A DNA stretch of 20,048 bases from a virus, in IMG/VR virus record IMGVR_UViG_3300008117_004958, positions 1 to 20,048 of that record. One strand, given 5' to 3'. Below are positions 1-17,040 of this stretch, in pieces. Both the position numbers and the translations under genes were made by a program. Every line of letters starts with the position of its first letter. Position 1 is the first letter of the stretch. The notes under the pieces were generated by a model that saw nothing but the letters and a program-made list of their open reading frames with translations, had not been told where the DNA came from and ran no database searches.

Positions 1-77
1 ATAAAATAGGAGTAAAAGGATTAGGATGGAAGAAAATGGGAAATCCACCTGAGTGGATATTTATTGGAAACATATAG
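1..77 (+). CDS. C-terminal end of an upstream gene (partial)
   Basis: The third reading frame is open from the left edge (base 3) to a TAG at 75-77 and encodes the last 24 residues of a protein, ending in PPEWIFIGNI. The other two forward frames stop within the first nine bases. The tail is rich in Gly, Lys and Trp. It is too short to name. A hairpin terminator follows 45 bases later, which fits the end of a transcription unit. Confidence 0.5.
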   Translation, partial: KIGVKGLGWKKMGNPPEWIFIGNI

Positions 78-122
78 AACAGATTCATTGCCTGTTCGCT
101 CAAAAGAGATAAAACTGGAGTA

Positions 123-155
123 GTGGCCCACCCAAAAGGTGGGCCACCTTATTTG
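123..155 (+). terminator. Hairpin terminator after the upstream gene
   Basis: GTGGCCCACC (123-132) and GGTGGGCCAC (138-147) form a perfect 10-bp stem around a 5-base loop. It is followed by CTTATTTG, a weak T-tract. The position, between the end of one gene and a promoter-like motif at 176, fits a rho-independent terminator, although the U-tract is poor. Confidence 0.65.
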
Positions 156-175
156 TAATGTCAAAAATAAAATCG

Positions 176-185
176 TATATTTAAT
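176..185 (+). promoter_or_regulatory. Late-promoter-like motif, copy 1
   Basis: TATATTTAAT matches the recurring TATATTTATA element in eight of ten positions. A TTG lies 20 bases upstream (153-155), a spacing that would also fit a Bacteroidota -33/-7 promoter. The first T is 14 bases before the ATG at 190, so transcription starting 5-7 bases downstream of the motif would give a leaderless or almost leaderless mRNA. Confidence 0.55.
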
Positions 186-189
186 TAGT

Positions 190-1629
190 ATGAGAAATCA
201 ATATCAAAAAGCAATCAGAAACTGGAATAGTATGATTAATAATGCTGTTCCTGCTGAAAGTAAAATTAAAACACCTAAAGTAATTATGGAAGAGGTAGTA
301 GAGGAAAAACCAAAACACATTGTAATTGTGGGAGCTGGTGTAGCAGGTATTAATGCCGCTACTAAATTAGTTGATAATGGCTATCCTGGTGAATATATTA
401 CTGTTATTGATAAAGGTAATGACCCACATAACCGCTTACCTGAAGAGGTAATGACAGGAATGCTTGGTGCTGGTGGATGGTCTGATGGTAAATTAACTTA
501 TCACACAGCAATTGGTGGTCAATTAGCTAAGTATTGTGGTGAGGAAAAAGCAATGCAGTTAATGGATCAAGTAATCTCTAATTTTAGACGTTTCCACCCA
601 AAACCAGAAGAAATATTCATGTCTGATCCACAAAAAGAGCCTAAATGGATTAAACCATACTTTGGTTTAAGAATGTTTCCTGTATGGCATATTGGATCTA
701 ATTTCTTACACGAGATTGCTAAAACATGGTATCAATATTTAATTAATAGAGGTGTTAAATTTGAGTGGAAAACTGAGGTTGAAGATATTGATTTTAATGA
801 TAATAGAATTTATACACACAATGCTGAATTAAAATATGATACTTTAATATTTGCAGTAGGGAAATCAGGTATTGATTTTGCTCAAAAATTATCTGATGAA
901 TATTCATTTCCAACTGAACCTAAATCAGTACAAATTGGTGTTCGATTTGAAGCACCACAAAAATATTTCCAAAAATTAATTGATGTATCTTATGATTTCA
1001 AATTATATCAAAAATTCGATAATGTATCTCTCCGTAGCTTTTGTACTAACAACAATGCGGCTTATGTGGCTGTTGAGGAAACCTATGGCGATGTTAGTTA
1101 CAATGGGCATGCTAAAAAAGGAAAGGAATTTGAAAATCAAATGACTAATTTTGGTATCCTAATGGAAATTAAGGGTATTGAAGATCCATTTAAATGGTCA
1201 CGTGATGTAGTACAAAAACTCCAAATTAATGGCACAGGATTATACTACTCACCTAATAGAACTCGCAAACCAGGATTAACATCTGAAAGTACAACAGTAT
1301 CAGCTACACAAATTGATGATTTAGGATTATTTAATAAGGTGATGGATGGATATGATCAATATATTTTAGATTTTATTGATCAAATGAATAAAGTATTTAA
1401 ATTTGGTGATGATTGGGGTATGTATATTCCTGAGGTAAAGTATCTATCACCTGAACCACTAGTTAACTACCATAACTTATCATTAAATCAGTTTCCAAAT
1501 GTACACTTTGTAGGTGATGCTTTATCAGCTCGTGGTATTACAGTATCAGGTGCACATGGCATTTATGTTGCTGAAAAACTAATTCAACATAAACATCTTG
1601 TAGAACTAACACAATCAGAACAATATTAA
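190..1629 (+). CDS. FAD-dependent oxidoreductase, COG2509-like
   Basis: The 479-residue protein is a two-dinucleotide-binding-fold flavoprotein. After about 40 residues of variable N-terminus comes the FAD-binding strand IVGAGVAGINAA (GxGxxG from residue 48), then an acidic strand end (VIDKG), a GGWSDGKLT loop typical of COG2509 dehydrogenases, a second ATG-like strand LIFAVGKSGIDF, and the closing FAD motif FVGDALSARGITVSGAHG near residue 440. The family is poorly characterised and the substrate is unknown, so only a flavin-linked redox role is inferred. The ATG at 190 was chosen over an upstream TTG at 139 because it lies 14 bases from the promoter motif and the upstream stretch is inside the terminator. 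Stop-to-start distance to the next gene is 10 bases. In a phage this is an auxiliary metabolic gene candidate. Confidence is high for the fold and low for any reaction. Confidence 0.8.
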   Translation: MRNQYQKAIRNWNSMINNAVPAESKIKTPKVIMEEVVEEKPKHIVIVGAGVAGINAATKLVDNGYPGEYITVIDKGNDPHNRLPEEVMTGMLGAGGWSDGKLTYHTAIGGQLAKYCGEEKAMQLMDQVISNFRRFHPKPEEIFMSDPQKEPKWIKPYFGLRMFPVWHIGSNFLHEIAKTWYQYLINRGVKFEWKTEVEDIDFNDNRIYTHNAELKYDTLIFAVGKSGIDFAQKLSDEYSFPTEPKSVQIGVRFEAPQKYFQKLIDVSYDFKLYQKFDNVSLRSFCTNNNAAYVAVEETYGDVSYNGHAKKGKEFENQMTNFGILMEIKGIEDPFKWSRDVVQKLQINGTGLYYSPNRTRKPGLTSESTTVSATQIDDLGLFNKVMDGYDQYILDFIDQMNKVFKFGDDWGMYIPEVKYLSPEPLVNYHNLSLNQFPNVHFVGDALSARGITVSGAHGIYVAEKLIQHKHLVELTQSEQY

Positions 1630-1639
1630 AATAAAAAAC

Positions 1640-1870
1640 ATGACAAAACGACTTAAAACAGAAGACGGAAGCATAGTATACTATTCAGAAGGTAAAATGC
1701 ACAATTTTGATGGCCCTGCCTATATCCCACAAGGCAATAAACGTGCTGCTGAATATTATTTATTTGGAATTAAATACACTAAAGTACAATGGGAAGAATT
1801 TAAGAAAGATGCTAATGGACTTCCATTTTACAAAACAGCTGTTGGTAAAGCATCAGGTGCTAGAGTTTAA
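1640..1870 (+). CDS. Small hypothetical protein with MORN-like segment
   Basis: The 76-residue protein is not assigned to a named family. The segment KMHNFDGPAYI followed by AEYYLFGIKY resembles the 'xx-N-x-DGPA-xx ... YYL-x-G' pattern seen in short phage proteins and in MORN_2-like repeats. No signal peptide or membrane segment is visible. It follows the flavoprotein gene by 10 bases with only an A-rich leader and is probably cotranscribed with it. The overlapping frame starting at 1707 is a shadow. Confidence 0.65.
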   Translation: MTKRLKTEDGSIVYYSEGKMHNFDGPAYIPQGNKRAAEYYLFGIKYTKVQWEEFKKDANGLPFYKTAVGKASGARV

Positions 1871-1897: not shown

Positions 1898-2101
1898 ATG
1901 AAGTTTGAGCGCAAATATGAAGATGATGATACTATTGAAACGTGGACGTTTGATTTAAGTAAATTTAAACAAGGTCCAATTGAGGTAGATATTAAGTATA
2001 AGGCTGGTGCTGAAAAACGTATTAAGCAACGTGCTAAAGAGGCTAAGCAAGAAAAGAAAATAGCACGTCAAATGAATAAAATAAATAATAAAAATAAATG
2101 A
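1898..2101 (+). CDS. Small charged hypothetical protein
   Basis: The 67-residue protein has an acidic first half (EDDDTIETWTFD) and a strongly basic C-terminal half rich in Lys, Arg and Gln, probably one long helix. No family is recognised. Its ATG lies only 4 bases after the TATATTTG promoter box, with no room for a ribosome-binding site. The stop TGA overlaps the next start in ATGA (2098-2101), so it is probably translationally coupled to the kinase gene that follows. Confidence 0.6.
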   Translation: MKFERKYEDDDTIETWTFDLSKFKQGPIEVDIKYKAGAEKRIKQRAKEAKQEKKIARQMNKINNKNK

Positions 2102-2616
2102 AAATAGGATTAGTTGGTACAATGAGTGTAGGTAAAACTACATTAGCTAAAGCATTAGGTGAAACTGATCGTTTTAAAGATCATAGTGTGCAAACAGAAC
2201 GCAGTAAATACTTGCGCGATTTAGGTATTCCACTTAATACTGATTCAACATTAAAAGGTCAATTTGTATTTTTAGCTGAGCGTGCTAGTGAATTATTTCA
2301 TGATAATATTATTACAGATCGTACAATTTGGGACGTAGCTGCATTTACTTTATCAGCAAAATCAATAAAAGATTGGGAAAAGCGCGATTTTGTATCAGCA
2401 GCTATGCATCTTCGTGAACAATATGATGTGGTTATTTATGTATCTCCTGATGGAGTTAATGTAGAAGATAATGGGATTCGTGAAACTGATGTAGAATATC
2501 GTAAAAAAATTGATATTGTTATTAAAATGTTGCTAGAGGAATACAAACCTACTAAATTAATTACTGTTAGTGGTACTACTGAGCAACGTATTGCTACAAT
2601 TTTACAAAATATTTAA
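2098..2616 (+). CDS. P-loop kinase, AAA_28/NadR-like
   Basis: The 172-residue protein opens with a Walker A loop GTMSVGKTT (residues 7-15) directly after the first beta-strand. A Walker-B-like or lid region TDRTIWDVAAF follows near residues 73-83. A late strand VVIYVSPDG and an arginine-containing lid (NGIRETDVEYRKK) complete a small nucleoside/nucleotide-kinase fold. This arrangement matches the AAA_28 domain found in NadR (nicotinamide riboside kinase) and in many phage proteins. The substrate cannot be read from sequence: a nucleotide, NAD precursor or RNA-end role are all possible. It overlaps the preceding gene by four bases (ATGA). Confidence 0.75.
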   Translation: MKIGLVGTMSVGKTTLAKALGETDRFKDHSVQTERSKYLRDLGIPLNTDSTLKGQFVFLAERASELFHDNIITDRTIWDVAAFTLSAKSIKDWEKRDFVSAAMHLREQYDVVIYVSPDGVNVEDNGIRETDVEYRKKIDIVIKMLLEEYKPTKLITVSGTTEQRIATILQNI

Positions 2617-14549: not shown

Positions 14550-14574
14550 TTATTAATTTTAAATTCATTTGACA

Positions 14575-16126
14575 ATGAACGTACAACAATTATTAGAGTC
14601 ATCTAACCAATACAAAGTTGTAATGGAAGATGCAAAACGTTTGTCAGGAAAGTGGGAAAAATCAGGCCTCTTAGAAGGTATCAAATCCACTACCGACAAA
14701 AACACAATGGCTATTCTCCTTGAGAATCAAGCTAAACAATTAATCACTGAAACTTCTGCTACTGGTGGTACTAATAGCATGACAGGTGGTGGTTACAATT
14801 CAGAAAACTGGGCTGGAGTAGCTTTACCATTAGTTCGCCGTGTATTCGGTGAAATCGCTGCTAAAGAATTCGTTTCTGTACAGCCGATGAACTTACCTTC
14901 AGGACTTGTATTCTATTTGGATTTCAAATATGGTACTGGTGTAAAACCATTTTCTGCTGGTGGTTCTTTGTATGGTGCTAACGCAACTACAAACGTAACT
15001 GATATCGCTTCTCAGTCACTTTACGGTGCTGGTAAGTTCGGTTACTCTATCAACCAGTTCTCAGCTTCTATCGCTGCTGTAACTACATCTATCGCTTGGT
15101 CTGATTTCAACTTGGATGCTAACTATTCTGCTTCTGTAACTCAATACAAGAAGATCTTAGTTCCACTTCCAGCTGCTGCTGACCAAAACGGTGTTCGCGC
15201 ATTCGTATTCACTTCTGGTTCAATCGCTGCAACTGATATCTTACAAGCTTTCACAGCTGTAAGTAACAACACAGCTTCTTTCATCGTAACTGGTTCTTTA
15301 GTTACTAACGTAACTGGTGCTAGTGCAGGTAACGTAGTATTGTATTATGATGTACAACCTACTCCAGCTGCTCGTGGTGATTTCGAAGACCAATCAGTTT
15401 CTGGTGGTGCTGGTAACGGTGGTGATGGTGGTTATCCTAACGCTCAAAGCGCTACTGCAATCGCTATCCCAGAAATCAACGTTCAGTTGAAATCTGAAGC
15501 AATTGTTGCTAAAACTCGTAAGTTGAAAGCACAATGGACTCCAGAATTCGCTCAAGATCTTAACGCTTACCATAGCGTAGATGCTGAAGCTGAATTAACT
15601 GGTATCTTATCTCAATACCCAATCAGTAACTTCTGCAGGTGTAGCTGTATCTGATTTAGGTTTCTATAACACACAAGGTGGTTGGTTCCAAACTTTAGGA
15701 ACTAAGTTACAAAAAGTATCTAACACTATCCATCAGTTAACATTGCGTGGTGGTGCTAATTTCTTAGTAACTTCTCCAACTATCGCTACTATCTTAGAAT
15801 CAATCCCAGGATTTGCTTCTGATGGTGATGGCGAAAAGGCTGAATTTAACTTTGGTATCCAGAAGGTTGGTTCTTTAAACAGCCGTTATAAGGTTTACAA
15901 AAACCCTTATATGACTGAGAACGTAATCTTAATGGGTTACAAAGGTGCTCAGTTCCTTGAGTGTGGTGCTGTATTTGCTCCATATGTTCCGTTAATCATG
16001 ACTCCACTTCTTTACGATCCAAATACCTTCACTCCACGTAAAGGTTTGATGACTCGTTACGCTAAGAAGATGATCCGTCCTGACTACTACGGTAAAGTAT
16101 ATGTTGCTGGTTTAAATACTCTTTAA
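14575..16126 (+). CDS. Major capsid protein (T4 gp23-like), interrupted
   Basis: The shell protein of the T4-type head, about 517 codons as given (T4 gp23 has 521). The start ATG at 14575 gives MNVQQLLESSNQY; a TTG at 14569 is rejected. A propeptide ends at the I-T-E site (residues 57-59, KQLITE then TSATGG), matching the T4 gp23 cleavage position near residue 65. The mature start contains NWAGVALPLVRRVFGE and VQPMNLPSGLVFYLDF, both hallmarks of the family. The first frame runs on to AEAELTGILSQ and then fails (stop at 15654). The second frame picks up as SVTSAGVAVSDLGFYN and continues to the end (YYGKVYVAGLNTL). The conserved segment that normally follows ILS (STEI...EINRE-type) is absent, so this is a small deletion with frame change at about 15610-15625, not a simple single-base shift. 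Codon use is richer in C-ending codons than in neighbours. Confidence 0.9.
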
Positions 16127-16436: not shown

Positions 16437-17040
16437 ATGAAGGAACCAAACCGTGAGAGAAAAAACGACATTAAGCTCATTAATGCCGTTCAGTTAAATG
16501 ATGAACAAAAAGAAGCAAAAAGGTTAATAGTAGAAAACCAAGTTGTAATTGTAACAGGTAGAGCAGGATCAGGTAAATCATTAGTATGTGCTCAAGCCGC
16601 ATTAGATTTTCTTAAGAAAAAACAAATCAGCTGTATTTACAATACACGTGCATATGGAGGCACTTATCGAAAATCTTAATAAATGCTGCACCAATAAAAA
16701 CGAAGTGCCTGGATTAATTGAGGATGGTAAGGTTAAAGCATTACCAGTTCAATTCATCAGGGGTAAAACTATCGATGATATACTAATTGTTGAGGAAGCA
16801 CAAAATCTTACCAAAGGTGAGATGCTAGCTATATTAACACGATTGGGCAAAACTGGTAAAATTGTTATCAACGGTGACAACGAACAAACCGATATAAACT
16901 CAAAAACAGGCGAAATAAACGGGCTCTCTTACGCAATCGAATTATCTAAAAAAATCGAGGAGATCAAGTGGATTAAATTGAAAGAAAACCACAGATCGGA
17001 TCTAGTCGGAAAGATACTTGAATACGAATATGGAAAATAG
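16437..17040 (+). CDS. PhoH-like P-loop ATPase, interrupted
   Basis: PhoH-family ATPase, common in phages, with the helicase-like core. The first part encodes QLNDEQKEAKRLIVENQ and the Walker A loop VTGRAGSGKSLVCAQAA (about residues 36-52), then KQISCIYNTR. The second frame begins near 16645 as HMEALIENLNK and goes on to IRGKTIDDILIVEEAQNLT (Walker B, VEEAQ in place of the usual DEAQ), KIVINGDNEQTDI and a C-terminal ENHRSDLVGKILEYEY, all PhoH hallmarks. The conserved piece between, normally R-P-x...-GFLPG-x...-EKM-x-P-Y, is missing, so a deletion of perhaps 20-30 codons with a frame change lies near 16645-16655. PhoH proteins are thought to act on RNA or in stress, but the role in phages is unsettled. 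Confidence 0.85.

Follow-up and report, generated by a model that had tools for sequence, protein, structure and literature searches.

The stretch of DNA analysed here (the window) is the whole of record IMGVR_UViG_3300008117_004958 and comprises 20,048 bases. It is T4-like phage DNA: a T4-type terminase, a gp20-type portal (PF07230, 1.5e-69), a gp21-type protease (PF03420, 3.5e-33) and a gp23-type capsid protein (PF07068, 2.9e-30) are all encoded 3' of the flavoprotein gene that is the subject of this report, and on the same strand. The nearest isolates to the window are Flavobacterium phage immuto (portal 59%) and Microcystis phage Mel-JY01. The hosts of this T4-like clade are probably Bacteroidota, as hinted by two ORFs inside the relative phage genome G002, one of which (154381-156123) resembles, by eye, a TonB-dependent receptor with no PHROG match, the other (152770-153972) a Bacteroidota lipoprotein, again by eye. 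Within the window, the gp23-like capsid gene (14569-16126) and a gene that is PhoH-like by eye (16437-17040) are each broken into two frames and are full-length in G002; these breaks are possibly assembly indels.

The features surrounding the flavoprotein gene are collected in Table 1. The window opens within a gene truncated at the end of the contig; its final codons, KIGVKGLGWKKMGNPPEWIFIGNI and a stop, match the end of gene c11 of the related locus L003. The family of c11 was assigned with PF03013 (4.5e-6, in L003) and phrog_624 (2.9e-52). The approximately 110 bases between the stop codon of this gene (75-77) and the start of the flavoprotein gene hold a conserved RNA element at 77-150.

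Table 1. Coordinates of the features at the flavoprotein locus
Feature	Position	Strand	Remarks
C-terminal end of c11	3..77	+	Cut by contig edge; Pyr_excise (PF03013)-like, phrog_624
Hairpin P1	77..97	+	77-82 pairs with 92-97; 9-nt loop AUUCAUUGC
H-type pseudoknot	86..125	+	Loop 86-91 (CAUUGC) pairs with 120-125 (GUAGUG)
Terminator hairpin and T-rich tail	123..150	+	Terminator scan, 10-bp stem; base reuses the pseudoknot strand
Promoter-like box TATATTTA	176..183	+	Conserved before the gene in relatives
COG2509-type FAD-dependent flavoprotein	190..1629	+	479 aa; ATG start; intact ORF
Small MORN-like ORF	1640..1870	+	76 aa; MORN-like by eye only
Small ORF, frequent neighbour	1898..2101	+	67 aa; in 39/82 sequences (flavoprotein-selected set)
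AAA_28/NadR-type P-loop kinase	2098..2616	+	172 aa; PF13521 1.7e-10; phrog_2107 9.1e-24

A flavoprotein of the COG2509 family

The original prediction, which had described a full-length COG2509-type enzyme with both dinucleotide motifs and the C-terminal FAD-contact motif in place, is borne out in each of these respects. The N-terminal dinucleotide motif GAGVAG occupies residues 48-53, the second glycine motif AVGKSG residues 222-227, and the FAD-contact GD residues 442-443; all three are kept in 41 phage homologues, and their cores in 49 phage and bacterial sequences. Pfam analysis returned general FAD/NAD Rossmann families only (Pyr_redox_2, E 3.8e-10), while a profile built from 15 relatives identified VP0956 (PDB 3nlc) at E 1.4e-33, other flavoproteins scoring 1e-8 or worse. 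An AlphaFold2 model based on the 49-row alignment of phage and bacterial sequences reached a pLDDT of 86, superseding an earlier and poor model from phage sequences alone (pLDDT 73). VP0956 is also its top structure match (Z 29.7, 3.1 Å over 388 residues). With VP0956 and the Clostridia homologues, the protein has in common the motifs GxGxFSDGK, HxG, VxIGVRxE and RxFC, as well as NGH, TN-L, YxxExK and the C-terminal GD. It is thus almost certainly a member of COG2509.

From phages to Clostridia, 41 alignment columns are invariant across the 49 sequences, the window included. Among the invariant residues are K101, H167, R252, E254, K271, R282 and C285, together with E296, N305, H307, E415, K417, G442 and D443; residues of active-site type are hence fixed rather than freely varying. 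Because of its fold, these invariant residues and its purifying conservation, the flavoprotein is predicted to be active and is very likely catalytically competent. Our search for literature on COG2509 found a single passing mention, and we know of no settled reaction, substrate, product or ligand for this family.

The second-ranked fold matches of the model are the HI0933-like structures 4cnj, 3v76 and 2gqf, with Z of about 19.6 (about 19-20 with 2i0z included). These represent COG2081, the HI0933 family, which includes RdsA. In contrast to the match with VP0956, the alignable stretch is only about 230-270 residues. NGH and RxFC are invariant in COG2509, the comparison with the HI0933 family being one of fold alone.

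A core module of a T4-like phage clade

A protein scan of IMG/VR yielded 80 flavoprotein loci that were kept, with best segments 70-87% identical. The order flavoprotein, small MORN-like ORF, P-loop kinase, terminase, portal is common to these approximately 80 protein-found loci and to about 130 IMG/VR loci retrieved with an unrelated DNA pattern. In the flavoprotein-selected set of 82 sequences, the window counted in, the MORN-like ORF is present in 79 and the kinase in 80; the Pyr_excise-like gene is sometimes part of the module, preceding the flavoprotein. Since a set selected by the flavoprotein is biased for a comparison of conservation, this comparison was repeated in loci retrieved solely with the upstream RNA pattern. 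In this set, the median identity of the flavoprotein was 69.5% versus 54.6% for TerL, and the flavoprotein exceeded TerL in 42 of 45 loci. It is nearly certain, therefore, that the module is a conserved core component of this T4-like clade, and the sporadic occurrence that would speak against the original prediction was not what we saw: the gene is near-constant and its neighbours are fixed.

The phylogenetic check that accompanied the original prediction also gave a clear result. In a maximum-likelihood tree, all copies from T4-like phages form one group (100/99), and the branch between this group and the cellular copies in the tree amounts to 5.2 changes per site. The cellular copies were taken from a single scan as its 80 top-scoring sequences and are mostly from Clostridia. 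The phage copies are only about 25-32% identical to cellular COG2509 proteins and, unlike these, have a fixed phage operon and an RNA element; they constitute a new clade of a known orphan family. Around the bacterial genes, no convincing conserved neighbour was found in 80 loci, a purA-like gene lying near six of them. Eight homologues annotated as 'fecal phage' (H1-H8) were rejected as phage genes: these unverified records resemble bacterial fragments, with scores like those of plasmid-borne Lachnospira genes or a position among bacterial branches.

The isolate matches listed for the flavoprotein come from Campylobacter phages and 'Bacteriophage sp.' records only, with none from immuto or Mel-JY01. 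The Campylobacter Fletchervirus protein, a 'NAD/FAD-utilizing dehydrogenase' (phrog_12409), is the other phage COG2509 member in isolates. It keeps the family-invariant residues in a joint alignment, yet is only about 24-28% identical, sits on an extremely long branch of the tree, and has neither a kinase neighbour nor an RNA element.

The adjoining NadR/AAA_28-type kinase is likewise as originally predicted, with two small ORFs separating it from the flavoprotein. Its PF13521 match spans the whole domain (residues 2-164) at 41.8 bits, against a curated cut-off of 27, and its nearest phage family, phrog_2107, is named thymidylate kinase. The proposed constancy of this partnership holds within the present group (of the 49 RNA-selected loci that extend 4 kb or more downstream, 47 include the kinase) but not beyond it: Fletchervirus has the flavoprotein, whereas a similar kinase occurs without it in CP21-type Campylobacter phages and in Flavobacterium phages, so that the link is not obligatory elsewhere. 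The suggestion that the two genes form a cofactor mini-pathway for NAD was not sustained, as seven relatives yielded no NAPRTase; a NAD pathway via CTP_transf_like matches was also rejected, these matches being short or general. A mobile cassette of five genes (phrog_1314, an ATPase and three more genes; 12401-16537 in L003) occupies the gap between kinase and terminase in L003, and that between the flavoprotein and the MORN-like ORF in L065 and L033.

In at least nine loci (e.g., L072:9758-11928, L075:418-3247, L079:2993-4845, L241, L244, L305, L314 and L237) the flavoprotein gene is cut at one and the same place, around residues 207-213, which corresponds to a loop that differs freely in length among the intact proteins. 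The two halves are separated by endonuclease-like (GIY-YIG-like) or short ORFs. Most N-terminal halves finish in ETGE-IL[EK]D and most C-terminal halves open with M[RK]KIKFD. Both halves keep their starts and stops and remain conserved; with these signals of their own, both appear to be translated. A group I intron was considered as the cause of the split and rejected, with no Rfam match, and the conserved MRKIKFD start of the C-terminal halves makes genes in pieces the more likely explanation.

The relatives carry further genes of interest. A phage tmRNA lies beside a tRNA-Leu in L171 (15887-16717) and L183 (16806-17929), with tags ending in ADYALAA and ADYAVAA, and a phage GroEL-type chaperonin (PF00118, 2.3e-68) is encoded in G002 (L172:18369-19979). 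The G002 stretch L174:2734-7599 (61-66 kb) contains the preQ0 pathway genes FolE, QueE-like, QueC and QueD, as well as a 261-aa phrog_19058 protein that is DpdA-like by eye only. Judging from this gene content, the DNA of these relatives likely contains 7-deazaguanine bases. Could the flavoprotein belong to this modification pathway? QueC is present in G001-G005 and G010, and FolE, QueD and the QueE-like protein also in G002; however, immuto has QueC and no flavoprotein, Fletchervirus has the flavoprotein and no QueC, and in G002 a distance of about 70 kb separates the pathway genes from the flavoprotein gene. We consider such a role very improbable.

A structured RNA element upstream of the gene

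The conserved RNA element directly upstream of the flavoprotein gene was absent from the original prediction. In 33 sequences from flavoprotein-selected loci, 100% of cells in P1 are paired, with four of five pairs changed on both sides, and 99% of cells in the pseudoknot, where both-side changes affect three pairs; pseudoknot variants include CAUUGC/GUAGUG, CAUAGC/GCUGUG and UAUAGC/CUGUA. When the partners were slid by 1-3 columns the covariation fell to near zero, and none of 500 shuffles was as high as the seven both-side pairs, a count for which the sequences had been joined across a variable linker beforehand and in which changes in related phages are not independent events. The strand that closes the pseudoknot lies inside the terminator fold to the extent of one to six of its six nucleotides in 135 elements, and with all six in 40 of these.

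A search of IMG/VR with DNA patterns, made without reference to the protein, returned at least 135 distinct elements. In 128 of the 135 the flavoprotein is encoded within the first three ORFs; of the remaining seven, four lie at contig ends, two precede a divergent copy of the flavoprotein, and one is a chance hit. A pattern for the UAUAGC variant retrieved 12 stretches, and the one of these that is devoid of the usual motif (L349) still encodes a flavoprotein with 47% identity. In the reverse test, which covered the 53 flavoprotein loci whose upstream sequence was long enough, a relaxed pattern found the element in 47 and the covariance model recovered two more (L027 and L037), leaving four loci (L021, L022, L029 and L033) with no element by pattern or model. 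A deep-branching flavoprotein variant (GAGVSTQYGVLHLL; L293:6258 onward) is still accompanied by the RNA element and by a Pyr_excise-like gene upstream.

The covariance model, R1, matches the window at E 1.5e-12, the window itself being among its 19 seed sequences. It places one strong copy near the gene in each of 11 flavoprotein-phage records and finds no element in immuto, Mel-JY01 or Fletchervirus; immuto and Mel-JY01, near relatives that do not possess the flavoprotein gene, are thus also devoid of the RNA. Weak extra matches near the main copy in G010 (88499-89257), a record with a split gene, are possible decayed duplicates. Rfam 15 at the gathering score gave no match for the window and four relatives, and relaxed thresholds on the isolated stretch gave no credible match up to E 10. 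Taken together, there is very little doubt that this is a real structured RNA tied to the flavoprotein gene, and it is a new one, previously uncatalogued and with no Rfam family.

In 103 of 124 cases the start of the element falls in a span that runs from 6 nt ahead of the upstream stop codon to 19 nt past it, and the upstream genes are diverse (105 of them end in 90 different C-terminal hexapeptides). The idea that the pseudoknot promotes read-through of this stop codon was rejected, since the in-frame extension past the upstream stop is short and variable, with a median of 11 codons. A start at the stop codons of many different genes could equally mark a 3'-end RNA in its own right: a small RNA, released by cleavage or termination at the ends of upstream mRNAs, which would serve the flavoprotein as substrate, partner or scaffold instead of controlling it as a leader. 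The terminator at its end, the promoter-like box that follows and the single strong copy per genome, always near the flavoprotein gene, are in keeping with this reading. Against it, a Pyr_excise-like gene or other ORFs can separate element and flavoprotein, and the terminator reuses the pseudoknot strand, which is the usual sign of a leader switch. We regard a separate small RNA as a serious alternative, though an unlikely one.

Promoter-like box, proposed attenuation and possible substrate

The region between the terminator and the start codon bears on the timing of expression, which the original prediction had placed late in infection, behind a late-type promoter. A conserved promoter-like box is indeed present; the T4 late promoter TATAAATA, however, shows no enrichment in the window, whose plus strand lacks an exact copy, and was rejected. 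TATATTWA-type boxes gather 30-75 nt past the pseudoknot strand (132 elements yielded 116 matches, against a background of about 0.01 per 15 nt), and in two relative genomes the promoter-like box is enriched 3-4 fold at 12-60 nt before starts. In relative genomes it also precedes QueE-type and other non-structural genes; late timing is therefore not proven, and the claim of strictly late expression is not supported. The same applies to the virion role that had been derived from it. A late gene for virion assembly, or for the redox protection of particles, would suit a position just upstream of the terminase, portal, protease and capsid genes on the same strand, but the box is not confined to structural genes, no virion motif or signal was seen, and the neighbours of the Fletchervirus homologue are dUTPase, clamp loader, lysis and topoisomerase genes. 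Such a function is accordingly highly unlikely. Overall, the observation behind the original prediction is confirmed and its interpretation partly supported.

As the pseudoknot and terminator pairings appear to be mutually exclusive, we propose that the element may act in the manner of an attenuator, a proposal read from the pairings and to which we give slightly less than an even chance. If the pseudoknot formed, the strand that starts the terminator stem would be withheld and read-through from upstream would reach the flavoprotein gene; were the pseudoknot absent, the terminator would close and the gene would depend on its own promoter. The promoter-like box would provide a second, independent supply of transcript. 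Its position past the terminator weakens the attenuator model, since the gene may not need read-through at all.

What the pseudoknot might respond to can be considered by analogy. Pseudoknots of the preQ1 and SAM-II type are likewise small, hairpin-type and overlap a terminator; the phage element differs from these in its conserved loop and in being tied to one phage gene. A riboswitch, with the pseudoknot as an aptamer whose ligand is some metabolite connected to the reaction of the flavoprotein, would account for the compact H-type fold, the conserved loop AUUCAUWGC, the overlapping terminator and the strict association with one gene. Many riboswitch classes, on the other hand, control several gene families, while this element was not found beyond the flavoprotein gene and is matched by no Rfam class, and we judge a metabolite aptamer decidedly unlikely. 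The broader notion of a new phage-only riboswitch or protein-responsive RNA, sensing the substrate, product or state of the flavoenzyme, seems rather less unlikely, though still doubtful.

With regard to the reaction, the flavoprotein could use its FAD for a two-electron redox reaction whose substrate is a nucleobase or nucleic acid, similar to HI0933/RdsA and GidA on RNA. GidA acts on tRNA. RdsA is the E. coli 23S rRNA D2449 synthase (PMC12501074). The suggestion, a weak one, draws on these RNA-acting fold relatives, on the adjoining P-loop kinase and on the Pyr_excise-like gene upstream; against it, the fold relatives are distant (Z about 16-20) and many of them do not act on nucleic acid. 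A nucleobase or nucleic acid as substrate is thus a tentative proposal, and one that we rate below attenuation. The best overall explanation of the locus, a core COG2509 enzyme in a fixed module with an RNA attenuator, falls a little short of an even likelihood in our estimation.

COG2509, an orphan family that is widespread and for which a structure has been solved, here provides a core gene of a T4-like clade that is common in IMG/VR. The genes split by homing elements, with both halves intact, represent a natural test of which parts of the flavoprotein matter. The pairing of flavoprotein and RNA is the surprising part, and it makes the function of COG2509 testable: if the element is a dedicated RNA switch, its ligand would reveal the reaction of an enzyme family widely distributed among bacteria.
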